From contig NZ_AOIQ01000021.1 of the NCBI RefSeq assembly GCF_000337515.1, positions 241,834-305,833 on the forward strand: a stretch of DNA of 64,000 nt, written 5' to 3'. This DNA is from Halovivax asiaticus JCM 14624 (GTDB lineage: Archaea > Halobacteriota > Halobacteria > Halobacteriales > Natrialbaceae). Both the position numbers and the translations under genes were made by a program. Below are positions 54,701 through 64,000 of this stretch, piece after piece (within the stretch, counting starts at the first letter, position 1; each line of letters starts with the position of its first letter). The notes under the pieces are model-generated. The model searched no databases and was not told where the DNA came from. It saw only the letters and a program-made list of their open reading frames with translations.

Positions 54701-55276
54701 ATGTTACTGACCGTCTCCGGCCCACCCGGGAGCGGAAAGAGTACGACGGCGGCCTTGCTCGCCGAACACTTCGACCTCGAACACGTAAGCGGCGGAGACA
54801 TATTCCGAGAACTCGCCGACGAACGAGACTACACGCCACTCGAGTTCAACAAACTCGCCGAAGAGAACGACTCGATCGATCGTGACCTCGACCGGCGTCT
54901 CCGCGAGGTCGCCGTCGAACGCGACGATCTCGTCCTCGAATCCCGGCTCGCCGGCTGGCTCGCCGGTGAGCACGCTGACTTCAAGTTCTGGCTCGATGCA
55001 CCAGCCCCGGTCCGGGGTGAGCGCATCGCCGAGCGCGAAGAGAAGGATCCGGCCGCTGCGACCGAAGAGACGCGAGCTCGCGAGGCCAGCGAGGCCCAGC
55101 GCTACGAGGAGTACTACGGGATCGACATCGAGGATCTGAAGATCTACGACCTCTCGGTCAACACGGCCCGCTGGACCCCCGAGGCGGTGCTCGATATGCT
55201 CACGACCGCCGTCGAGGAGTACGACGCCGACGGTGACGAGGGCCTGGCTCCCGTCGACCTCGACGTCGACTTCTGA
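54701..55276 (+). CDS. cmk: Cytidylate kinase
   Basis: 191 residues, the short archaeal Cmk. P-loop [24 protein letters not shown], then [10 protein letters not shown] (CMP-binding), [14 protein letters not shown] and the lid region. It phosphorylates CMP/dCMP to the diphosphates. Followed after 10 bases by cbf5. ATG 54701 opens the P-loop. Confidence 0.94.
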
Positions 55277-55286
55277 CCCCTCACTT

Positions 55287-56225
55287 ATGACGCTCCGTGA
55301 CCCACCCGACGACCGGTCGATCGCGTCCCTGTTGAGCTTCGGCGTCGTGAACCTCGATAAGCCGTCTGGTCCCTCGTCGCACCAGGTGAGCGCCTGGATC
55401 AGAGACGCCGTCGACGACCGCCTCGCCGAAGCCGGTCACGACCCGATCGGACGAGCGGCCCACGCGGGGACGCTGGATCCCAAGGTAACCGGCTGTCTGC
55501 CCGTAATGCTGGGTGACGCGACCAGGCTCGCACAGGTGTTTCTCGAAGGGGCCAAGGAGTATATCGCTGTCCTCGAGTGCCACGGACCGGTTCCAACCGA
55601 CGTCGAATCGACGCTCGCCGAATTCGAGGGGCCGATCTACCAGAAACCGCCGCGAAAGAGCGCGGTGTCGCGCCGCCTTCGCGTCCGGGAGATCTACGAC
55701 ATAGACGCGCTGGAGATAGAGGACCGTCGGGTCCTCCTGCGAATTCGCTGTGAGAGCGGGACCTATGTCAGGAAACTCTGTCACGACCTGGGCCTCGCAC
55801 TCGGAACCGGCGCACACATGGGCGATCTGCGGCGGACGGCGACTGACCCGTTCGACGACCGCGATCTCGTCAACGCGACCGATCTGATCGATGCGCTCGC
55901 CTTCTGGATCGAGGACGACGATACGGACCCGCTCCGGTCAATGGTGGACCCCGCCGAGCGCATTCTGTCGGACCTGCCGGCGGTGACGATCGCGGAGAAC
56001 GCGGCGGCGGAAGTCGCCAACGGGGCACCGGTCTACGCACCGGGAGTTCTCGACGTAGACGGCGTGGATTCCGGGCGCGATGGGGCCGACGGCGATGGGC
56101 CAGCTGACACGCCGTTGGTCGCCTGCTACACGCCGAACGGCTCGGCAGTCTGCCTCGGCAAACTGGTCGGTGATCCCGATGCGGATTCGGGAACGGTCGT
56201 CGACCTCGAACGTGTGCTAGTGTAA
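55287..56225 (+). CDS. tRNA/rRNA pseudouridine synthase Cbf5 (TruB/dyskerin)
   Basis: 312 residues. The catalytic motif is GRAAHAGTLDPKVTGCLPV with the conserved Asp (near residue 69), then GAKEYIAVLECHG, YQKPPRKSAVSRRLRVREIY, and a C-terminal PUA domain (about residues 225-310). It forms pseudouridine in tRNA and, with H/ACA RNPs, in rRNA. The region near residue 255 holds a short acidic insert. Shares the operon with cmk. Confidence 0.95.
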   Translation: MTLRDPPDDRSIASLLSFGVVNLDKPSGPSSHQVSAWIRDAVDDRLAEAGHDPIGRAAHAGTLDPKVTGCLPVMLGDATRLAQVFLEGAKEYIAVLECHGPVPTDVESTLAEFEGPIYQKPPRKSAVSRRLRVREIYDIDALEIEDRRVLLRIRCESGTYVRKLCHDLGLALGTGAHMGDLRRTATDPFDDRDLVNATDLIDALAFWIEDDDTDPLRSMVDPAERILSDLPAVTIAENAAAEVANGAPVYAPGVLDVDGVDSGRDGADGDGPADTPLVACYTPNGSAVCLGKLVGDPDADSGTVVDLERVLV

Positions 56226-56309
56226 AGTCGAGGCGCCCGGGCCGGGATAGCAGAGTCGATCGCGCTCAAACGACACGCTTAAACGGCAACCGGCCGTCGA
56301 TCCGGGTAC

Positions 56310-56380
56310 GGGACCGTGGGGTAGTGGTATCCTCTGCGGATGGGGTCCGTAGGACCCGAGTTCGACTCTCGGCGGTCCCA
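56310..56380 (+). tRNA. tRNA-Pro (GGG), likely attachment site
   Basis: Complete cloverleaf: acceptor GGGACCG/CGGTCCC with discriminator A, anticodon stem TGCGG/CCGTA with loop ATGGGGT (anticodon GGG at 56342-56344), and T arm CCGAG/CTCGG. No intron. The mobile-looking gene cluster starts 110 bases after its 3' end, the usual place for archaeal integration. The matching downstream copy of its 3' end is not seen in the window. Confidence 0.95.
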
Positions 56381-56466
56381 TCAGTAATTTTACTGGATGT
56401 AGATTACGAAGCGTAGCAGTCTCGCCATCCCAACTTCCTCAGCAATGCGTCGTTACTTCAACTACC

Positions 56467-56489
56467 CTTTTTAAGTGGGGTGGTGCGGC
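56467..56489 (+). promoter_or_regulatory. Promoter and Shine-Dalgarno of the overlapping polycistron
   Basis: A T-rich TATA-like CTTTTTAAG (about 56467-56475) precedes the first ATG (56490), and GGGGTGGTG just before it could act as a Shine-Dalgarno. It is the only plausible promoter before the fifteen-gene run. Confidence 0.4.
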
Positions 56490-56609
56490 ATGAGCGCCGG
56501 CGTCGAGATGACGAGCGAGCCGGTGCTCGTCTGTGAGTTCTGCGGCTTCGAGATCGAGGAGCCCGGACAGCCATGCGCCGCACTCGACGACGGGAGGTGT
56601 AGCCCATGA
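56490..56609 (+). CDS. Element gene 1: 39-residue Cys-pair microprotein
   Basis: From ATG 56490: MSAGVEMTSEPVLVCEFCGFEI and a short tail with two further Cys (PCAALDDGRC). The CEFCG pair plus two distal Cys would bind one zinc. It opens the polycistron and overlaps gene 2 by four bases (ATGA). No known function. A second in-frame Met at residue 7 could also start it. Confidence 0.65.
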   Translation: MSAGVEMTSEPVLVCEFCGFEIEEPGQPCAALDDGRCSP

Positions 56610-56944
56610 TCGACCTGGCGGCACCCGCCGACGGGTCGACCTGCCGGAACTGCGGCAATGACGTCACGAAGCAGTTCGCCCGCGTGTTCGGCGACAACGA
56701 CGATGTTGTCCACCGCTGCCCCGAGTGCGATAACTACCGACGGATGAGCCGCGCGAGCGGCGCCGGAAAGTCCCTCGAGGGACATCCGGATCCGGAGACC
56801 ACGGCCGGGCATCACGGGAACGATGCGCGAGCCGACGGCGGTCGTCGACGCGATCGCGGCCAGACCTCCGTTGGGTGGCTCGTCTTCACGATCGTCATGC
56901 TCGGGCTCTCTGTCGTCCCGCTCCTGGTGGTGATGACGGCATGA
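56606..56944 (+). CDS. Element gene 2: zinc-ribbon protein with C-terminal membrane helix
   Basis: 112 residues. The N-half holds CRNCGNDVTKQFARVFGDNDDVVHRCPEC (seen as CRNC...CPEC), a complete zinc ribbon. A short charged linker leads to a single helix VGWLVFTIVMLGLSVVPLLVV at the C-terminus. It resembles the DUF7563 proteins of haloarchaea. The ribbon would sit on one side of the membrane, most likely inside. Overlaps gene 3 by four bases. Confidence 0.7.
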   Translation: MIDLAAPADGSTCRNCGNDVTKQFARVFGDNDDVVHRCPECDNYRRMSRASGAGKSLEGHPDPETTAGHHGNDARADGGRRRDRGQTSVGWLVFTIVMLGLSVVPLLVVMTA

Positions 56945-57543
56945 GCCAGATCGACTGGCCGCTCGAACTCGATCGCCACGCGGAGGGTGAGCGTCGCGAA
57001 ACGACGAAGTTCGAGGTCGAACTCTCGCAGGCGGTCGACGACCTCGAGACGGAGATGGATCGTCTCGACGTAGACGACTGGCGGCTCGAGACGGCGATGG
57101 ATCACCAGTCTCAGAATCCCAACTATCCCTACGCGAACCAGCCCCAGCCCGACGATCCGGGTGCAGTGGTCAGCTGGACGATGGACGGTGAGGATTACGC
57201 GGTCGGATGTGACCGATGGACCCGCGTTCGCGACAACGTTCGCGAAATCTGTCTCTACGTGGGGGAGAAGCGGAAGATGGAGGATCGGCCCGTTTCGACG
57301 GGTCAATCCGAATTCGCCACGGCCCGCCTTCCGAGCGGAGACGGTGACGCTGTCGCGGCCGGCCCGCCGGCCCACGTCACCCTCGGTGTCCGCCCGGACG
57401 CCGATCGCGACGAGATCCGAGAGGCCTACCGCGAACGCGTCAAGGAGGTCCACCCCGACCAGAACGGCGGCGGGGATAGTGAGGCGTTCCAGCGCGTGAA
57501 GCGTGCGAGAGACGCGCTGCTCAACGGTGGTGAGTCCGCATGA
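56941..57543 (+). CDS. Element gene 3: J-domain protein
   Basis: 200 residues. Residues 1-135 are soluble, with a coiled-coil-like start (DRLDVDDWRLETAMDHQ) and a central domain with several Trp. The last 55 residues form a J-domain: LGVRPDADRDEIREAYRERVKEVHPDQNGG with the essential His-Pro-Asp. J-domains stimulate Hsp70 (DnaK), so it could recruit the host chaperone. The last J-domain helix ends at the stop. Overlaps genes 2 and 4 by four bases. Confidence 0.8.
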   Translation: MSQIDWPLELDRHAEGERRETTKFEVELSQAVDDLETEMDRLDVDDWRLETAMDHQSQNPNYPYANQPQPDDPGAVVSWTMDGEDYAVGCDRWTRVRDNVREICLYVGEKRKMEDRPVSTGQSEFATARLPSGDGDAVAAGPPAHVTLGVRPDADRDEIREAYRERVKEVHPDQNGGGDSEAFQRVKRARDALLNGGESA

Positions 57544-58088
57544 CGGGCGGATCCTACCGGCGCGAGTGCTGGGCGTGCGAGGCCTCGATCACGATGGCCG
57601 CGCGTTACTGCCCGCACTGCGGTGAAGTCCAGTCACACGAGGGCGACGACGTCGAACTCGCAACCGTCGAGCGTGCGGTCCTCGAGGAGTTGGTCGAGAA
57701 CGCGAAGGGGAAGCTCGAAGGTGACGTGAGTCGCTTCGGACCGGACGCGACCGGCTACGATACCGACGAGTTCGCCGCGACGATCGAGGCCGCGGAGGAC
57801 GCACTCGACAGCGTTCCCAGCGCCGAACTTCGCGCCGACGGCGGTACCACCGTGAGTGGGCTCGAGAGTCGCGTTGCTAAACTCGAGTCGATCATCAATC
57901 GAGAGCTCGGTTACAATCTCGGAAACCTCCCGATGGAACCACAGACGGTCGATTGCGTCTGTGGAGAGGCCTTCGAGGTAAACGTCATCAACGGCCTGGT
58001 CTGCCCCGAGTGTGGGCGTGGCTCTGACGACCGAGATCGAGCGGCAGACACAGTCACCGGTGACCCAAACGGAGGCGATCGCCCATGA
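57540..58088 (+). CDS. Element gene 4: protein with two zinc ribbons
   Basis: 182 residues. An N-terminal ribbon CWAC...CPHCG (residues 10-27), a central helical region with VAKLESIINRELGYNLGNL, and a C-terminal ribbon with DCVCGEAF...LVCPECGRG. Two ribbons separated by a helical middle suit nucleic acid or protein binding. The function is unknown. Starts and ends in 4-base overlaps. Confidence 0.7.
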   Translation: MTGGSYRRECWACEASITMAARYCPHCGEVQSHEGDDVELATVERAVLEELVENAKGKLEGDVSRFGPDATGYDTDEFAATIEAAEDALDSVPSAELRADGGTTVSGLESRVAKLESIINRELGYNLGNLPMEPQTVDCVCGEAFEVNVINGLVCPECGRGSDDRDRAADTVTGDPNGGDRP

Positions 58089-58441
58089 CGGGCTGTTCGT
58101 ACTGCGGCCGGCCCGGCTGCGGCTACGACGAGTGTCCCGAGCGCCTCGAGGACAAACTCGGCGTGCCCAGCGACTACGATCCCGATTGCGAAGGCGAGCT
58201 CAAGACCGACGGCGGTACCTCCACCGACGGTGTTGACCGGCCGACGGTCGGCGTTGACACCCTGGAGTACGACGGGGCGGAGACGCACACGGACTCGGAC
58301 GGAGAAGTGGTTACTCGGCACTACTACGAGTGTCCGAATTGCGGCTTTCCGATATCGACCTGGATGGATTGCCCCGAGTGTCTCTGGTACGACTCAGATA
58401 CCTGGGTTAACACGCTCGCGGAGGAGGATCGGGATGTCTGA
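58085..58441 (+). CDS. Element gene 5: multi-Cys zinc-binding protein
   Basis: 118 residues. N-terminal MTGCSYCGRPGCGYDECPERLEDKLG carries four Cys; the C-terminal part carries YECPNCGFPISTWMDCPECLW (second pair set). The middle is acidic and disordered. Overlaps gene 6 by eight bases. Confidence 0.65.
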   Translation: MTGCSYCGRPGCGYDECPERLEDKLGVPSDYDPDCEGELKTDGGTSTDGVDRPTVGVDTLEYDGAETHTDSDGEVVTRHYYECPNCGFPISTWMDCPECLWYDSDTWVNTLAEEDRDV

Positions 58442-58634
58442 GGGCGGTATGTACCGAACCACGACCGCCGAGAAGGTCAACGTGGTCGGTTTCGTTGTCC
58501 TGTTAATCGGTATCTATTCCGGGTACTCGAAACTCTCGATGGCTGGATTCGCTGTTTCTGGCGCCTCCACCGTGTATCTTCTCACTCGTTCACTACAGGC
58601 GGCCACGGAACACGCGGAGGGATCCGACCGATGA
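58434..58634 (+). CDS. Element gene 6: small membrane protein
   Basis: 66 residues (MSEGGMYRTTTAEKVN). Two hydrophobic helices (VVGFVVLLIGIYSGY and MAGFAVSGASTVYLLT) joined by a short turn. No Cys. A second Met six residues in is a possible start. Ends in a 4-base overlap with gene 7. Confidence 0.6.
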   Translation: MSEGGMYRTTTAEKVNVVGFVVLLIGIYSGYSKLSMAGFAVSGASTVYLLTRSLQAATEHAEGSDR

Positions 58635-58795
58635 GCCGCCCGTTAGACGTCTGGGTCGGCATCTCTCTCGGCGCGACGTCCACCTGGGCGCTGACGACGT
58701 ACACGTCCTTTCCCCTGGTTGAGGCCGCGTTCGCCACTGCGATCTGCGCGATGATCGGCACGCTACTCACTCTGACCACGGGTGATGTGCGATGA
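58631..58795 (+). CDS. Element gene 7: 54-residue membrane protein
   Basis: MSRPLDVWVGISLGATSTWALTTY followed by FPLVEAAFATAICAMIGTLLTLT, a two-helix protein. Too short for most gene finders but placed exactly between genes 6 and 8 with 4-base overlaps (ATGA on both sides), which is the main support. Confidence 0.65.
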   Translation: MSRPLDVWVGISLGATSTWALTTYTSFPLVEAAFATAICAMIGTLLTLTTGDVR

Positions 58796-59181
58796 GCCGC
58801 ACCGAAGGCCTCGGTCGCTACGGCGTCCGCCCGCCGACGATCGTCCGCGAGCCGGCTACCGACTCGCAGGGCATCCCGATCTGCCCCGAGTGCGGCCATC
58901 CCGTCCCGCAGACCAAGCAGAGCCATCAGGTCCACCAGCCCGACGTCGTCGATCGCGACCTTCGCGAGCGCCTCGAGGGTGCGCTCGTCGTCTTCGGCTG
59001 GCGGTGTGACCAGCACGCCTACGAGATCGTGATCCCCGCGCGGTGTGACGCCGACGCCACTCACATGGTTGAGGGCTGGACTGGCGTCGGACTCGAGTTT
59101 GCCGACGGGCACGCGCGATACGTTGCTGTCCCGAAGAAGACGCTGCTCGACGTCGCCGCGGAGACGGGGGTGGGGCCATGA
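58792..59181 (+). CDS. Element gene 8: Cys-pair protein of unknown function
   Basis: 129 residues. One ribbon half CPECG near residue 31 with a lone distant Cys pair (RCD...ARCD), and a beta-rich C-terminal part (ALVVFGWRCDQHAYEIVIPARC). It may form one zinc site. Sequence context gives no function. Confidence 0.6.
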   Translation: MSRTEGLGRYGVRPPTIVREPATDSQGIPICPECGHPVPQTKQSHQVHQPDVVDRDLRERLEGALVVFGWRCDQHAYEIVIPARCDADATHMVEGWTGVGLEFADGHARYVAVPKKTLLDVAAETGVGP

Positions 59182-59426
59182 CGGTCGCGAGTCGACCGAA
59201 GGGCCGGCCACGGTTCCCATCTGATGAGACCGAGCCAGACAGGTGTGAACTCTGTAAGAAGGCTCTCACAGACTTCTACTACGCCAACGGCGTGTCTGTG
59301 TGCGCGATCTGTTACGGGTTCAAAATGGGGTACTACGGAGTGCGCCCAGCAGATCACCCCCGGATCGGCCCCGATGTCGAAGCTGTCGAGCAGCACCTTC
59401 GTACGAACGGAGGTGAGTCGCCGTGA
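59178..59426 (+). CDS. Element gene 9: small zinc-finger protein
   Basis: 82 residues with DRCELCKKAL and VCAICYGF, a four-Cys finger, then an acidic C-terminus. The last of the genes that start with ATG. 4-base overlap with gene 10. Confidence 0.65.
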   Translation: MTVASRPKGRPRFPSDETEPDRCELCKKALTDFYYANGVSVCAICYGFKMGYYGVRPADHPRIGPDVEAVEQHLRTNGGESP

Positions 59427-59920
59427 AATTCGATTGCTGTGCGTTCTGCGAGTACCGACACAGCCCGCAAAACACGTACAGGCGGGACGGATGGGACTAC
59501 CCTCACGGCGACGAGGAAGACGTCGCTGAACCCGTTACGGAACGGATGGCGGTCCTACCTGACGGGATCTGTCTTCGCCTCACTCCTCCGTGTCAGCCGA
59601 CCGTCGACGAGATACTCGAACCAGGGGCGCTGATCACGACCAGCTACAGCCCTGACCGCATTCAGAAGGTCTTCCACGTGCGTGAGCGGCCGGTATACGG
59701 AGTTCCGACTTACTCGATCGCGATCGGCGATCCCGATACGCCAGCTGGTCGCGACGGCTACCCGAAGCGCTACAGAGGCCGCAACATCAAGGAACTCGTC
59801 TATCAGGACGGTGCGATTCGGAAGCTGTTCTGGAACAACGACGACGAGATCAAGGTCGTCGGCTACGATGGAATCGAGGCCGACTACCAGGCGACGATCT
59901 CCGCGGGGTGGTCTGCGTGA
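59423..59920 (+). CDS. Element gene 10: 165-residue protein with N-terminal Cys cluster
   Basis: Starts GTG at 59423. MKFDCCAFCEYRHSPQ gives three Cys within seven residues; later the chain is beta-rich (SPDRIQKVFHVRERPVYGVPTYSIAIGD). No family recognised. The first gene of the set with a GTG start; the remaining five also use GTG. Confidence 0.6.
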   Translation: MKFDCCAFCEYRHSPQNTYRRDGWDYPHGDEEDVAEPVTERMAVLPDGICLRLTPPCQPTVDEILEPGALITTSYSPDRIQKVFHVRERPVYGVPTYSIAIGDPDTPAGRDGYPKRYRGRNIKELVYQDGAIRKLFWNNDDEIKVVGYDGIEADYQATISAGWSA

Positions 59921-60219
59921 CGGGACTCGGTAGTCCGGACGCCAGCACGCTGACGCGCCGGCGTCGGGAGAAGCGGACGGACTTCGTGATCGAACTCTCG
60001 TTCGGCGAGCCGCTGGTAAGCTATTCGTGCCCGGGTTGCGGGACCGAAGCCCTGGCGACGCTGCTCGTCCCGACGGATGAGCCCACGTTCGGCAACTGCT
60101 CGAACTGGGACTGCGATGCGTTCCTGAAGTTTATCCACGACGGTGGCGACTCGAACGGATCGGCCGGGCACAACCGCCCGCTCGGTGCGTTCGCTACTGA
60201 CGGAGGTCGATCGGCGTGA
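59917..60219 (+). CDS. Element gene 11: zinc-binding protein
   Basis: 100 residues from GTG 59917. A mid-protein ribbon YSCPGCGTEALATLLVP plus FGNCSNWDCDAF provides four Cys. A basic N-terminal stretch (TRRRREKR) could contact nucleic acid. Overlaps neighbours by four bases on both sides. Confidence 0.6.
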   Translation: MTGLGSPDASTLTRRRREKRTDFVIELSFGEPLVSYSCPGCGTEALATLLVPTDEPTFGNCSNWDCDAFLKFIHDGGDSNGSAGHNRPLGAFATDGGRSA

Positions 60220-60413
60220 GTCGAATCGACCGCGACATGGCAGAGAAGGAGCGCGGGCTCCTCGAGCAGGACTACGCGACCCCGTGTCCGAACTGTGGCG
60301 GAGTTGTCTTCGAGTGGTCTGACTCCGATACCTGCTCTGACTGCGAAGACGCCAACGGCGAGACCACGGAACAGGCTACGCTCACGGCCGACGGGGTGAG
60401 TTCGCGTGACTGA
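60216..60413 (+). CDS. Element gene 12: 65-residue zinc ribbon
   Basis: GTG start. CPNCGGVVFEWSDSDTCSDC makes one complete zinc ribbon with little else around it. Overlaps gene 13 by eight bases. Confidence 0.65.
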   Translation: MSRIDRDMAEKERGLLEQDYATPCPNCGGVVFEWSDSDTCSDCEDANGETTEQATLTADGVSSRD

Positions 60414-60597
60414 CTCGACACCGGTCTGGCTCGGTAAAGCGTTCGCTCACGCCACCTTCGCGGTCATTCCGATGTACACGGCCCTGGTGATGGTTGCTGT
60501 TGTCGATCCAGCGCCAGTCTACTGGTTCCTCGTGGGAGCCGTCGCGGTCCAGGCCATCGACGCAGCCGACGACATAGCTCACGAGGTGATTTGGTGA
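60406..60597 (+). CDS. Element gene 13: small membrane protein
   Basis: 63 residues from GTG 60406. Two hydrophobic helices (AFAHATFAVIPMYTALVMVAVV and YWFLVGAVAVQAIDA). Ends DDIAHEVIW, overlapping gene 14 by four bases. Confidence 0.6.
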   Translation: MTDSTPVWLGKAFAHATFAVIPMYTALVMVAVVDPAPVYWFLVGAVAVQAIDAADDIAHEVIW

Positions 60598-60713
60598 GCC
60601 GCGTGATCGAACCCGCCGAGTGCGAGCGTTGTGGCGCTCGCGTCGACGGGCTTCGACAGGTCTGCACTGACTGCGTGCAAGAGGTGCGCCGGGCTCGAGG
60701 TGGTCCGCTGTGA
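60594..60713 (+). CDS. Element gene 14: 39-residue zinc microprotein
   Basis: GTG start at 60594. CERCGARVDGLRQVCTDC is a compact four-Cys zinc unit; almost nothing else is present. Its placement between overlapping neighbours (GTGA at both ends) supports it as real. Confidence 0.65.
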   Translation: MSRVIEPAECERCGARVDGLRQVCTDCVQEVRRARGGPL

Positions 60714-62371
60714 GTTCGGAGGCCTCAGCACCCGGTAACGTCGACGACGTCACCGGGACCGAGCGCGATCAATTCCCAGAGCCTCGTGCCCACGGCGCCG
60801 CCGTCATGAACCACTTTTCGGACCTGGAGGGAAAGCTCTCCGATCCGTCTCACGAGCGCGGAACGCTCTACGACCAGGCGCTCGCGTACTGGCGTGAGCA
60901 TATCGGCGATCCCGAGAACCAGCCGTACCTCGCGGTCGAAGACTTCGACGCTGGGTGGCTGGGATCTGACCGCCAGCACGCGATCGTCGCGAAAAGCTCC
61001 GGCTGGAAAGCCGGCTACGGCCACGGTGACGACTATACGCAGTACTACGAGCAGCATCTCATGCTCCGCGAGGTCCGCGAGGACGAGAACGGCGAGCTGG
61101 AGTTGACCGAACCGGCGCTCTCGGCGAACGTCAACATCCAGCCGCAGTTCCGGGACATGGTCTATAAGAGCGGTGACGCCCTCGAGTGTCCCTACGGTGA
61201 CGGCACGCGCGTCGTCTGCCAGACCACCTGGGCGGAGGATCCCTACGAGATCGAGCGCCGGATGTACGACATCCTTCGGGCTGTCTACGGTCCTGATGTG
61301 ATCGATCTCGACGATCGCGTTCACGACGCGCGGCGAGCTGCGAAAGCCGAGGCGCACATCCGGTTCCGGATCGGGAAGAAGGCCGCCGCGATCGAGACGA
61401 TCGAGCAGTCCAAGCAACTCGTCGCCTGGGGCGGCGAGGCCGAGATCGACGCCTACCAGAAGCGGATCCAGGAGGGCTGGCTCGAAGCCCGCGTCAGTAA
61501 CGATCGCTGGCACCTGCTCGGTTTCGATCACCAGCCGTTCGATACCGAGGTGAAACTGTATCAGGCCGCCGCCTGGTTCAAGAAGCCGAAGACCAGCCCG
61601 TACCACCATCCGAAGCTCGAGGCCAGCTTCGACGGCGTCAACGAGGGGAAGCTCCCGCACATCGAGCAGTGGGACGAGATCATGGACTACCTGCGGAACA
61701 TCGTCGCGACGCACGCACGATGGGCCGGGATTGAGCGCTCCGATCTCGTCGCCGACGACTTCTTCGACGGGCCACACTGCGCGCCCTACGAGTTCGAGAA
61801 GCCGACCGGTCGACGTCGGATGCTCCGGCGACGGTACGAGGACCTGGCGACCGACATCTACCGCGAGGCGCTGAAAGAGTCGACGACGTCCGTCTACGAC
61901 ATCCTGCGCGTGATCGCCGAGCACGACGGTGCGACGTACGACGAGCTCGAAGAACGCACGGGACTGGCGCGATCGACGATCCGCTACCACGTCGCCCGGC
62001 TCGCCGAGAGCGGTGTCGTGAAGCGGCTGTCGAACCCCGTGCTCGTCGTCTTCGTCTCCCAGGTCGTCCTCGAGCGGGCTCGCGAGATTCTTCGCGAGGT
62101 CCGGCCCGAAGACATGGCCGACGACATGGACGCGCGGGCCGAAGAACGCCGTGAGCGGCGCGAGGAGCGTTCGGAGACAGACAGCGACCAAGAGGACTCA
62201 GTCGACGAAACGGCGAGCGACGCGGCCAGCGATCCGGACGAGATCGGCTTCCGCTACCTGAGCGAACTTGCCGCCTCGATCCACGACGTCGCCCACCGCG
62301 TCGATCGCGACGAGCTTGACGATCGCGACGTTCGGGTTCGCGCTGACGAACTCCCACCGCCACTCCGGTAA
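60710..62371 (+). CDS. Element gene 15: winged-helix protein of 553 residues
   Basis: Residues 1-390 form an unrecognised, mostly helical and Trp/Tyr-rich domain. Residues 395-445 (SVYDILRVIAEHDGATYDELEERTGLARSTIRYHVARLAESGVVKRL) are a clear winged helix-turn-helix, followed by a charged coiled-coil tail. It is by far the largest gene of the run and the last, so it could be a regulator or a replication initiator. Neither can be shown from sequence. GTG start, 4-base overlap with gene 14. Confidence 0.75.
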   Translation: MSSEASAPGNVDDVTGTERDQFPEPRAHGAAVMNHFSDLEGKLSDPSHERGTLYDQALAYWREHIGDPENQPYLAVEDFDAGWLGSDRQHAIVAKSSGWKAGYGHGDDYTQYYEQHLMLREVREDENGELELTEPALSANVNIQPQFRDMVYKSGDALECPYGDGTRVVCQTTWAEDPYEIERRMYDILRAVYGPDVIDLDDRVHDARRAAKAEAHIRFRIGKKAAAIETIEQSKQLVAWGGEAEIDAYQKRIQEGWLEARVSNDRWHLLGFDHQPFDTEVKLYQAAAWFKKPKTSPYHHPKLEASFDGVNEGKLPHIEQWDEIMDYLRNIVATHARWAGIERSDLVADDFFDGPHCAPYEFEKPTGRRRMLRRRYEDLATDIYREALKESTTSVYDILRVIAEHDGATYDELEERTGLARSTIRYHVARLAESGVVKRLSNPVLVVFVSQVVLERAREILREVRPEDMADDMDARAEERRERREERSETDSDQEDSVDETASDAASDPDEIGFRYLSELAASIHDVAHRVDRDELDDRDVRVRADELPPPLR

Positions 62372-62953
62372 ACTCGCGGTACGTGTTCGCCCGGTCGATA
62401 GCGGTAGCTGTGTGCGGTTTGACTTTTTTGCATTGTGACCCTACAACGGTTCTACCTATTCAACTCGATAGGTCTGGGTTCTGATGGTAGTTTCACTTTC
62501 ACCAGCCTGTTAACGGGTGCGTACCAGCCAGTTTGGGGCCAGTTTCTCGAGATCGACGTCAGTAGAGAACGCCTACGAGCGGATTTCTTCCCGTCGATTT
62601 CGGCCGCCTCAGCGGTTTCGGTGGCCACCGCGGTTGTCAGGTCCCCCTACGGTAGGTGCCCCTAAGGGGGCGGGGTAATCTTGCGGCGCGCAGAACGCGC
62701 GCCGCGCTGGTGGTTGGCCGGGAAGGCTGTAGACAGGCGGCTCACCAGGGTGAGGGTAGCAGAACGACAGGGTGGTACCTTGATAACCGAGATTGTCGGA
62801 TGGCCTTAGGAGGGGTTCAGAAACTCTTCAGCATACTTAAAGCAGACTCAATAAAACCGCAAGGGCTGCCCAGCCCGCATCTGCAGATGATAAAGTCGAA
62901 ACCACCTCTACGGCGGTACCTTTTCGTATATGTAGTCCCGTTTGGATTTCATT
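62372..62953. other. Non-coding stretch with hairpins and a T tract
   Basis: About 580 bases without a credible gene. A T6 tract at 62424-62429 follows the polycistron and is a likely transcription end. Further on, CCCC/GGGG (62659-62669) and GCGGCGCG/CGCGCCGC (62683-62705, loop of seven) form GC-rich hairpins, and ACCTAT/ATAGGT lies at 62454-62473. A TATA-like CGTATATGT (62925-62933) is at leaderless distance from the next ATG. Confidence 0.45.
62424..62429 (+). terminator. T6 tract after the overlapping polycistron
   Basis: GACTTTTTTGC, 53 bases after the stop of gene 15. Archaeal termination needs little more than such a U run. No stem is required. Confidence 0.45.
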
Positions 62954-63574
62954 ATGGCAGATAATGGTGACCAAATTTTCGATCATCAGGTTCAGAAGGA
63001 GCAGGAGGAATTGAACGAATTATTCGGTGAAGGGACCCTCCTACAGTTGCGGAAAGACTGTTGCGACATCTACGAGCGATTTATGGACAACTCGGACGCT
63101 ACGCCAGAGGACAAGCTACAGTGGACAATCGTCGGTAAGTACGGTCTCGACGAGACCCGTAATCGATATCTCTCGATTGACCGCAGCCTGAACATGATTA
63201 ATTTCATCAACCTCTTCGCATCTGCTGTTCTCGTAGGAATTCTTGTGCAGGTCTTCCAATGGATCGGCGTCCCAGCAATGTCAGAATATGTGATTTCGGT
63301 GATTGTTGGTTTGTTATTCTATTCACTTGACGCTGGTCTACTGATAGCCAAAGCCCTCGTCACCGAGGTCGCATATCCGAAAGATGATTTTTCTCCTCGA
63401 TTACCGCCTGAGAAGCTGTATTTTATGGCTGCATGGAACAAGGCAGTAATTCAATCGACTACGACCTTACTGGGCCTCGTCATCTATGGCCTTATTTCAT
63501 CACCTGGCTCGAAGAGCTACGAGATCGGACTGGACCTTGTTGAATGGTGGGTCAAACGTCGGTATGGGCCCTGA
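62954..63574 (+). CDS. Membrane protein of the element, low GC
   Basis: 206 residues. A soluble N-terminal 85 residues (acidic, QVQKEQEELNELFGEG) is followed by three hydrophobic helices (FINLFASAVLVGILVQVF, VISVIVGLLFYSLDAGLLIA, TTLLGLVIYGLI). Codon use is clearly less GC-rich than its neighbours, indicating a different origin. ATG 62954 has a TATA-like box about 22 bases before it. No family recognised. Confidence 0.7.
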   Translation: MADNGDQIFDHQVQKEQEELNELFGEGTLLQLRKDCCDIYERFMDNSDATPEDKLQWTIVGKYGLDETRNRYLSIDRSLNMINFINLFASAVLVGILVQVFQWIGVPAMSEYVISVIVGLLFYSLDAGLLIAKALVTEVAYPKDDFSPRLPPEKLYFMAAWNKAVIQSTTTLLGLVIYGLISSPGSKSYEIGLDLVEWWVKRRYGP

Positions 63575-63595
63575 GTGGGCGCAGGTTTTTACGCG

Positions 63596-64000
63596 ATGAC
63601 GCGGCCAGAGACCCCGATGCACAGACATCCACAGGACGACCTAATCATCGCTGAGGCGCTTACCTGGATGGCTCGCCAGTACTCCGAAGGCTCGGAAATG
63701 TGGCATCACTGCTGGGCGATGGTTGACGAGATCGCCCACGAACATGGGCTGACGCTCGTCGAGGCGATCGAGCAGCGCGAGCCGCTGGAAGACCCGCAGT
63801 ATCGGAAACTCGGAAACGGCCCTGAAACAGATACATCGGTGCCGTCCTCAGGTGTCCCCATGAATGACCGACAACTGAAACAGCAACGGAAGCGGCGGGT
63901 CATTCGCTTCGAGGTTGGCAAGCGATTGCTCGAGCTCCGCGGCGGCGACGTCGAAGCGATGGCCGATGCGATCGCGACTCGGACCTTCGATGGTCGCGTC
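63596..64000 (+). CDS. Unidentified element gene, cut by the window end
   Basis: From ATG 63596 the frame stays open to base 64000, at least 135 residues: MTRPETPMHRHPQDDLIIAE, then a helical His/Trp-rich part (MWHHCWAMVDEIAHEHG) and a basic helix (KQQRKRRVIRFEVGKRLLELRGG). The C-terminus is outside. No function assigned. A T-rich GGTTTTTACG precedes the start. Confidence 0.6.
   Translation, partial: MTRPETPMHRHPQDDLIIAEALTWMARQYSEGSEMWHHCWAMVDEIAHEHGLTLVEAIEQREPLEDPQYRKLGNGPETDTSVPSSGVPMNDRQLKQQRKRRVIRFEVGKRLLELRGGDVEAMADAIATRTFDGRV

Follow-up and report, generated by a model that had tools for sequence, protein, structure and literature searches.

Overlapping small genes behind a tRNA-Pro gene of Halovivax asiaticus as the probable att-proximal part of a provirus replication operon

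The stretch of DNA analysed here (the window) comprises 64,000 nucleotides (nt) of contig NZ_AOIQ01000021.1 from the haloarchaeon Halovivax asiaticus JCM 14624 and contains, at positions 56490-62371, a chain of consecutive + strand genes, numbered g01-g15 in that order, many of which encode small zinc-ribbon-like proteins. Very probably, these genes are the part of a replication operon that lies closest to the attachment site (att) of a temperate, betapleolipovirus-like virus residing in a tRNA-Pro gene, and this operon would be restored on excision. The element is a betapleolipovirus-like provirus of 19,967 bp, whose left end lies inside the window; the region past the window end was read from the same 460-kb contig, with extended coordinates that carry on the window numbering. 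A preliminary description of the chain had seen in it a single translationally coupled module of an integrated element, whose proteins would act together, perhaps as a complex or in host takeover, and for which no described system was known.

The gene chain

The chain pattern is real, and the coordinates and overlap counts first given for it are all correct. The fifteen open reading frames (ORFs) are joined by 14 junctions, every one of them overlapping, 12 by 4 nt (7 ATGA, 5 GTGA) and two by 8 nt:

g01, 56490..56609, + strand: zinc microprotein, 39 amino acids (aa)
g02, 56606..56944, + strand: DUF7563 zinc ribbon with a C-terminal membrane helix (Pfam 8.6e-20)
g03, 56941..57543, + strand: J-domain protein with HPD, accessory (Pfam DnaJ 8e-12, phrog_9210 2.8e-62)
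g04, 57540..58088, + strand: 182 aa, two zinc ribbons, accessory
g05, 58085..58441, + strand: 118 aa, two Cys clusters, accessory, rare
g06, 58434..58634, + strand: 66 aa, probable membrane protein, accessory
g07, 58631..58795, + strand: 54 aa, membrane protein, accessory
g08, 58792..59181, + strand: 129 aa, core family phrog_21250 (2.7e-40)
g09, 59178..59426, + strand: 82 aa, zinc ribbon, accessory
g10, 59423..59920, + strand: 165 aa, orphan, accessory
g11, 59917..60219, + strand: 100-aa zinc protein, accessory, rare
g12, 60216..60413, + strand: 65 aa, zinc ribbon, accessory
g13, 60406..60597, + strand: 63 aa, membrane protein, accessory
g14, 60594..60713, + strand: 39-aa zinc microprotein, homologue of SNJ2 gp23/ORF23 (tblastn 2e-11)
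g15, 60710..62371, + strand: Rep-Arvir family protein (DUF7845 plus winged helix) and putative replication initiator, 553 aa, candidate catalytic Y284 and E304

Unprompted, 14 of the 15 ORFs are also called by a gene finder that relies on codon usage and was trained on the window's remaining genes; it misses g14, whose 39 aa are too short for it and which is conserved elsewhere. Outside the chain, overlaps (of 1 or 4 nt) are seen in 5 of the 26 pairs of same-strand neighbours in the window, and the 14/14 of the chain is therefore far above the local rate. At least one CxxC together with at least four Cys residues is found in ten of the fifteen proteins, which agrees with the ten zinc-type proteins originally counted; outside the chain, 6% of the proteins called in the window have a CxxC. 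The four membrane-helix proteins of that count are a fair estimate from hydropathy (g02, g07 and g13 are clear, g06 is borderline), and the single J-domain protein (g03) and the winged helix of the last gene (g15) were also recognised correctly. An NCBIfam search returned just generic J-domain, zinc and HTH matches, and an Rfam scan of 56000-64000 gave no match at the gathering score.

A probable operon split by integration

The chain does not start at g01, in a sense that, once the provirus is drawn as a circle, it runs on through att to an ORF that spans attP, then to the integrase and to a further five overlapping genes. The features at both ends of the element are the following:

56310..56380, + strand: tRNA-Pro (GGG), the integration target, found with ARAGORN
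56368..56380, + strand: attL core CTCGGCGGTCCCA, the last 13 bases of the tRNA-Pro preceding g01
56381..56493, + strand: 3' part of the predicted attP-spanning ORF (orf26 equivalent), ending in ...FKWGGAA*, its stop overlapping g01 as ATGA
extended 74205-75088: five zinc microprotein genes, with 4-nt overlaps with each other and with the integrase
extended 75085-76251: 388-aa tyrosine integrase, matching the SNJ2 integrase at 4e-40
extended 76335-76347: attR, the second copy of CTCGGCGGTCCCA, 84 nt behind the integrase stop

An exact 15-mer of the tRNA does not recur within 60 kb, and the 13-bp core was located by a search with shorter words. In same-genus genomes without the element, the tRNA and the sequence that here stands behind attR are 1.1-2.2 kb apart. 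Temperate pleolipoviruses have an integrase of this SNJ2 type and an att in the 3' end of a tRNA gene; that both are found here, in tRNA-Pro, bears out the earlier proposal of an integrated element beside a tRNA. When the ends are joined at att, the integrase stop lies 205 nt before g01 and a 70-codon ORF fills the gap exactly, sharing ATGA both with the integrase stop and with g01. The circle would have 22 consecutive overlapping genes over 8.1 kb (the five zinc genes, the integrase, the attP ORF and g01-g15), and integrase, attP ORF, CxxC gene and Rep, the putative replication initiator encoded by g15, stand on one strand and are joined only in the circle.

Genes spanning attP next to a CxxC gene were reported for pleolipoproviruses in 2021 (PMC7911831), and in 2026 one such gene proved to belong to the SNJ2 replication operon (PMC13107129). 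In that virus, orf1 through orf19 form one transcript, which starts inside int, and replication ceases when any one of orf19-orf26 carries a nonsense mutation, with the nuance, pointed out by the authors, that some operon genes may stabilise the replicon rather than replicate it (PMC13107129).

The putative initiator and its candidate origin

g15 belongs to the Rep-Arvir initiator family and, by homology with the SNJ2 protein, it would nick the origin and drive replication. Its residues 108-353 match PF25227 (DUF7845) at 1e-12 (48.6 bits, the gathering cut-off being 27), a family that received the name Rep-Arvir in 2026, once SNJ2 ORF19 was known to initiate replication in an origin-dependent manner (PMC13107129). 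When 31 g15 homologues and four virus Reps are aligned (n=35), g15 Y284 aligns with the essential Y283 of RepSNJ2, the position being Tyr in 35/35, and E304 aligns with RepSNJ2 E303, where Glu is found in 33/35. A profile of g15 compared by hhalign with the Reps of SNJ2, HRPV-3, HHPV4 and Harhisp1 gives an E of 6e-6 over 294 columns, with K-x-Y and HPK in register. The winged helix occupies residues ~390-465 (HTH_24/MarR_2 match at 392-443). For the AlphaFold model of g15, whose predicted local distance difference test score (pLDDT) is 77.8, the best match in the Foldseek viral library is A5Y2C5 (528 aa, E 1.5e-13), unnamed in the table and presumably a protein of Pyrococcus virus PAV1. The link of g15 to SNJ2 came via Pfam and the gene neighbourhood, and a scan of viral contigs with g15 found nothing.

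RepSNJ2 requires a hairpin ~176-197 nt behind its gene, and replication is abolished when the loop bases A191-A192 are changed or the stem is broken (PMC13107129). The SNJ2 origin motif 183-197, GTGTGGCTAAGGCCA, is not present behind g15 (at least 6 mismatches in the window), and across the g15 clade the search gave mostly 5-6 mismatches; the candidate origin was found by comparing hairpin architecture, not sequence. The experimentally defined SNJ2 origin hairpin is a GGC-TAAG-GCC stem-loop (PMC13107129), shared by the four betapleolipoviruses SNJ2, HHPV4, Harhisp1 and HRPV-3, whose loops lie at +179 to +190. CCCC-TAAG-GGGG is present in 17 of the 19 distinct g15-group loci, the loop lying 282-331 nt behind the rep stop. 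Behind g15, the candidate region comprises three elements:

62646..62656, + strand: inverted repeat CCTACGGTAGG, candidate Rep-binding site
62658..62671, + strand: hairpin GCCCC-TAAG-GGGGC, candidate nick site in the double-strand origin
62683..62705, + strand: second GC-rich conserved hairpin, GCGGCGCGC-AGAAC-GCGCGCCGC

These form one conserved block in the 12 loci aligned, and the stretch 62658-62671 is the sole TAAG hairpin with a stem of at least 5 in the 64 kb. Its folding energy is not unusual in a short fold (z -0.4) and reaches z -2.2 in a longer one, and therefore the case for an origin is one of conservation, not of stability. The predicted origin is SNJ2-type, with the same loop and another stem, that is, a variant and not an identical origin.

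Several observations weigh against this interpretation of the chain and of its last gene. The essential RepSNJ2 E25 aligns with a Gly (G29) in the g15 group, the N-terminal alignment being uncertain; the N-terminal domain of g15 has no significant Foldseek match to Rep_trans (the best named Rep is inovirus G2P, E 0.05); and tblastn of g15 retrieves no phage record at 1e-5, the link to isolated viruses therefore resting on profiles. As for the operon, the chance for a 205-nt spacer to be such a two-sided ORF is 5% in this element alone, and the case for the attP ORF therefore rests on the relatives: in eight of the ten with a definable att, an ORF starts at the integrase stop or shortly after it and extends to the first gene or into it, and five of these ORFs end in WSA* with GTGA into the first gene. 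Furthermore, SNJ2 ORF19 alone replicates a plasmid, unstably, so that the small proteins may serve stability rather than initiation. Finally, a TATA-like sequence, TTTTTAAG / CCCTTTTTAAGTGGGG, is located at 56465-56480, ~18 nt before the g01 ATG, and some expression while integrated is thereby possible. A later in-frame ATG of g01, at 56508, would better suit a nearly leaderless transcript from that site.

Comparison with known systems and relatives

The SNJ2 operon (orf3-orf2-int-orf26-orf25..orf19; PMC13107129, NC_074646) is, like the one described here, a set of compact overlapping genes split by integration. Both share the integrase, the attP-spanning ORF, a DUF7563 CxxC protein by att, a 39-aa zinc microprotein, a large DUF7845 Rep in last place and a TAAG-loop hairpin behind it, and gene order and position match SNJ2 gp25..gp19, with g02 as gp25 and g14 as gp23. 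The differences are also considerable: 22 genes here versus 11 in SNJ2, a distant Rep (17% identity in the hhalign comparison), a stem of GCCCC/GGGGC versus TGGC/GCCA, placed ~290 versus 190 nt downstream, and a J-domain protein plus ~10 further genes that are extra with respect to SNJ2. The integration target is also different, tRNA-Pro here and tRNA-Met in SNJ2, and no homologues of SNJ2 ORF21, 22 and 24 were found in the element.

Other systems are similar in part. The attP-embedded coding sequences of Halfvol1, Halfgib1, Harhisp1 and HRPV-9 (PMC7911831) also lie between the integrase and a CxxC protein and are whole only in the circle, whereas the attP ORF here is unlike them in sequence and has an ATGA overlap with its neighbours at both ends. 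In the arms of HRPV-3 (ORF12-ORF9, NC_017088) and HHPV4 (gp24-gp20, NC_047943), small genes likewise lead into a winged-helix/DUF7845 protein that faces the structural block, but these arms have 4-5 genes and their small proteins differ from those here. The initial impression of a system without described counterpart does not hold, since the SNJ2 replication operon has the same architecture and homologues of g02, g14 and the g15 family, and a CxxC gene beside an attP-spanning ORF was described in 2021 (PMC7911831). The coupled single chain, for its part, gains from the fact that the homologous SNJ2 operon is experimentally one transcript (PMC13107129). The overall kind of system and the SNJ2 operon architecture are known; the divergent Rep lineage with its own origin stem, the doubled gene number and the accessory content would be new, although members of this lineage could already be listed in the supplementary tables of PMC13107129.

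Homologues covering most of g15 are present in ~45-50 of 391 Halobacteria genomes. In the closer relatives, g02, g08 and g14, followed by g15, are found in the same order and strand directly behind a tRNA 3' end, the tRNAs being Pro (three anticodons), Arg, Ala and Tyr, and Val and Ile for more distant members. Most relatives have an SNJ2/HHPV4 structural block downstream. Their tRNA-to-rep arm is usually 0.9-1.9 kb with ~3-8 genes, versus 4.3 kb and 14 genes here (one locus, L123, has an arm of 3.7 kb with few recognisable genes), and the additional genes mostly fill two pockets, g02/g08 and g08/g14. From this distribution, g02, g08 and g14 appear to be the core, and g01, g03-g07 and g09-g13 accessory and mostly rare. 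Among the former, g02 is a homologue of SNJ2 gp25/ORF25 (tblastn 3e-17) and of Harhisp1_065; g08 has an invariant CxEC and C..H in the 14 relatives aligned, and its predicted fold has no relative in the PDB; and the g14 homologues upstream of closer g15 homologues are 54-67% identical. Among the latter, g01 has a homologue (48% over 29 aa) in another Rep-Arvir locus, g10 has no match among 105 other genomes of the family, and g04, g05 and g11 have few matches there, mostly partial. Regular linkage in other genomes is confined to g02, g08, g14 and g15; g03 often stands unlinked, and g04, g05, g10 and g11, the others tested, are rare.

Homologues of g03 are in fact common across haloarchaeal genomes, in many unlinked places including tailed viruses (44% identity to HCTV-2 gene 5 and 40% to BJ1 ORF5, both outside any pleolipovirus operon). 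HPD is retained in 29 of 32 homologues, and BJ1 ORF5 lacks the exact motif. In two elements, L115 and L116 (genomes G352 and G263), the gene lies directly 3' of a g02 homologue; one of them has an HRPV-3-type Rep instead of a g15-type one, the other has no recognisable Rep, and this suggests that modules are exchanged.

Could the chain be, instead, an early host-takeover or counter-defence operon, with zinc microproteins and a J-domain protein that target the transcription, repair or defence proteins of the host, and with g15 as a mere regulator? The cargo-like variation of ~10 accessory genes between elements (those tested being rare) would suit it, as would the presence of g03 in HCTV-2 and BJ1 and the precedent of zinc microproteins that regulate genes in haloarchaea, e.g., Brz (PMC2253796). 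Nonetheless, we regard it as unlikely, given that SNJ2 no longer replicates when its counterparts of the core genes g02 and g14 are lost, and that the last gene of the chain encodes a DUF7845 Rep and is followed by an origin-like hairpin. PADLOC gave no defence or counter-defence family match beyond a generic winged helix and marginal matches, after which a defence-system reading of the chain was dropped. Genome replication is the best-supported function, in place of the host takeover suggested at first.

The provirus beyond the chain

Behind g15, three + strand genes precede a minus-strand block (64.8-71.1 kb), the five zinc genes and the integrase. Two of the former are:

62954..63574, + strand: 206-aa provirus membrane protein, no family match
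63575..64000, + strand, ending at 64225 past the window: 216-aa provirus protein, phrog_25699, with homologues in related elements

The NTPase of the minus-strand block matches Hardyhisp2 (tblastn 5e-32), His2 (3e-31) and SNJ2 (2e-17). The spike-like protein (582 aa, phrog_2231 2e-51) has weak tblastn matches (9e-5 to 8e-3) to VP4 of HRPV-10/11/12 and to the Hardyhisp2 spike, and more membrane proteins of the block are PHROG-matched, in pleolipovirus order. A Nextera adapter junction, CTGTCTCTTATACACATCnAGAGATGTGTATAAGAGACAG, is found inside the spike-like gene (L069:12274-14022; extended ~68400-68440), where the protein reads CLLYTSLDVYKRQ; it is an assembly artefact, and the window itself has no Nextera adapter site.

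It is quite improbable that the element is a plasmid that has integrated, or a dead remnant, and not a virus. Plasmids and conjugative elements can also carry Rep-Arvir (PMC13107129), the spike matches known viruses weakly and the assembled spike gene contains the adapter insertion; however, the latter gives no evidence for a biological break, the order of the NTPase, the PHROG-matched membrane proteins and the spike-like gene is that of pleolipoviruses, and close homologues of SNJ2/HHPV4 structural genes are present in related elements whose left arm is the same. Least probable of all is that g15 be a transcriptional regulator and another gene replicate the element: the closest solved structures in the Foldseek search are MarR-type winged helices, and PHROGs (phrog_15150) and GenBank virus records name the family accordingly, but the winged helix is just a small part of the 553 residues, the invariant K-x-Y and HPK positions lie in the N-terminal DUF7845 domain, mutagenesis shows the SNJ2 member to be an initiator, and the element has no other recognisable Rep or Orc1/Cdc6.

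Proposed mechanism and significance

The anatomy, the gene families, the att repeats, the attP ORF, the conserved Tyr and the origin-like hairpin, as read from the sequence, together with the homology to SNJ2, suggest the following course for the replication operon. In the integrated state, it would be severed, with its front half (the five zinc genes and the integrase) on the right of the provirus and its back half, g01-g15, on the left, and the attP-spanning gene would be broken between both halves. Excision at the 13-bp att would produce the single chain of overlapping genes, to be transcribed then, and coupled translation would run through the small proteins to g15, which would bind the inverted repeat, nick the TAAG loop behind its own gene and start rolling-circle replication. 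The small proteins would be needed for this, with g02, g08 and g14 as putative core helpers of the clade. What we say of the accessory genes is conjecture: they may stabilise the replicon, as the SNJ2 authors suggest for some operon genes, and g03 may recruit the host DnaK to remodel the initiation complex. Lambda, P1 and F need DnaJ/DnaK, and a J-protein beside a Rep recalls that need, as a lead only.

A broader reading, which we hold tentatively and consider somewhat doubtful as a whole, is that of a second, divergent Rep-Arvir replicon lineage with its own origin, whose operon is an accessory-gene platform and in which the J-protein and the zinc microproteins would act in a replication-initiation or host-interaction complex, their supply being switched by the topology of the genome. 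In any case, a cluster of mostly nameless small proteins receives a probable function, the replication of a virus genome, and the excision-switch model of SNJ2 would be extended to a Rep lineage too divergent for simple BLAST, for which a specific origin is predicted and whose operon seems to accept many accessory genes, a J-domain protein among them. These predictions are testable with existing SNJ2-type vectors.

Additional observations

On the left flank, the window contains a cytidylate-kinase-like gene and truB (54701-56225), followed by the tRNA-Pro, and a TiaS-like gene lies beyond attR (names from reading the sequence). Within the provirus, a 259-aa protein (extended 72640-73419; L069:16674-17453) matches phrog_14115 at 7.9e-96 and no Pfam family, and it also occurs in L121 and L127, two other elements of the group. 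As for the relatives, one locus (L084, genome G260) has on one and the same stretch a second, partial g15 homologue (~128 aa), ~9 kb away from the complete gene, and one genome (G385 C1) carries the g15 gene in two near-identical copies and a g03 homologue in three that score equally, as if the element were present more than once or had been assembled redundantly.

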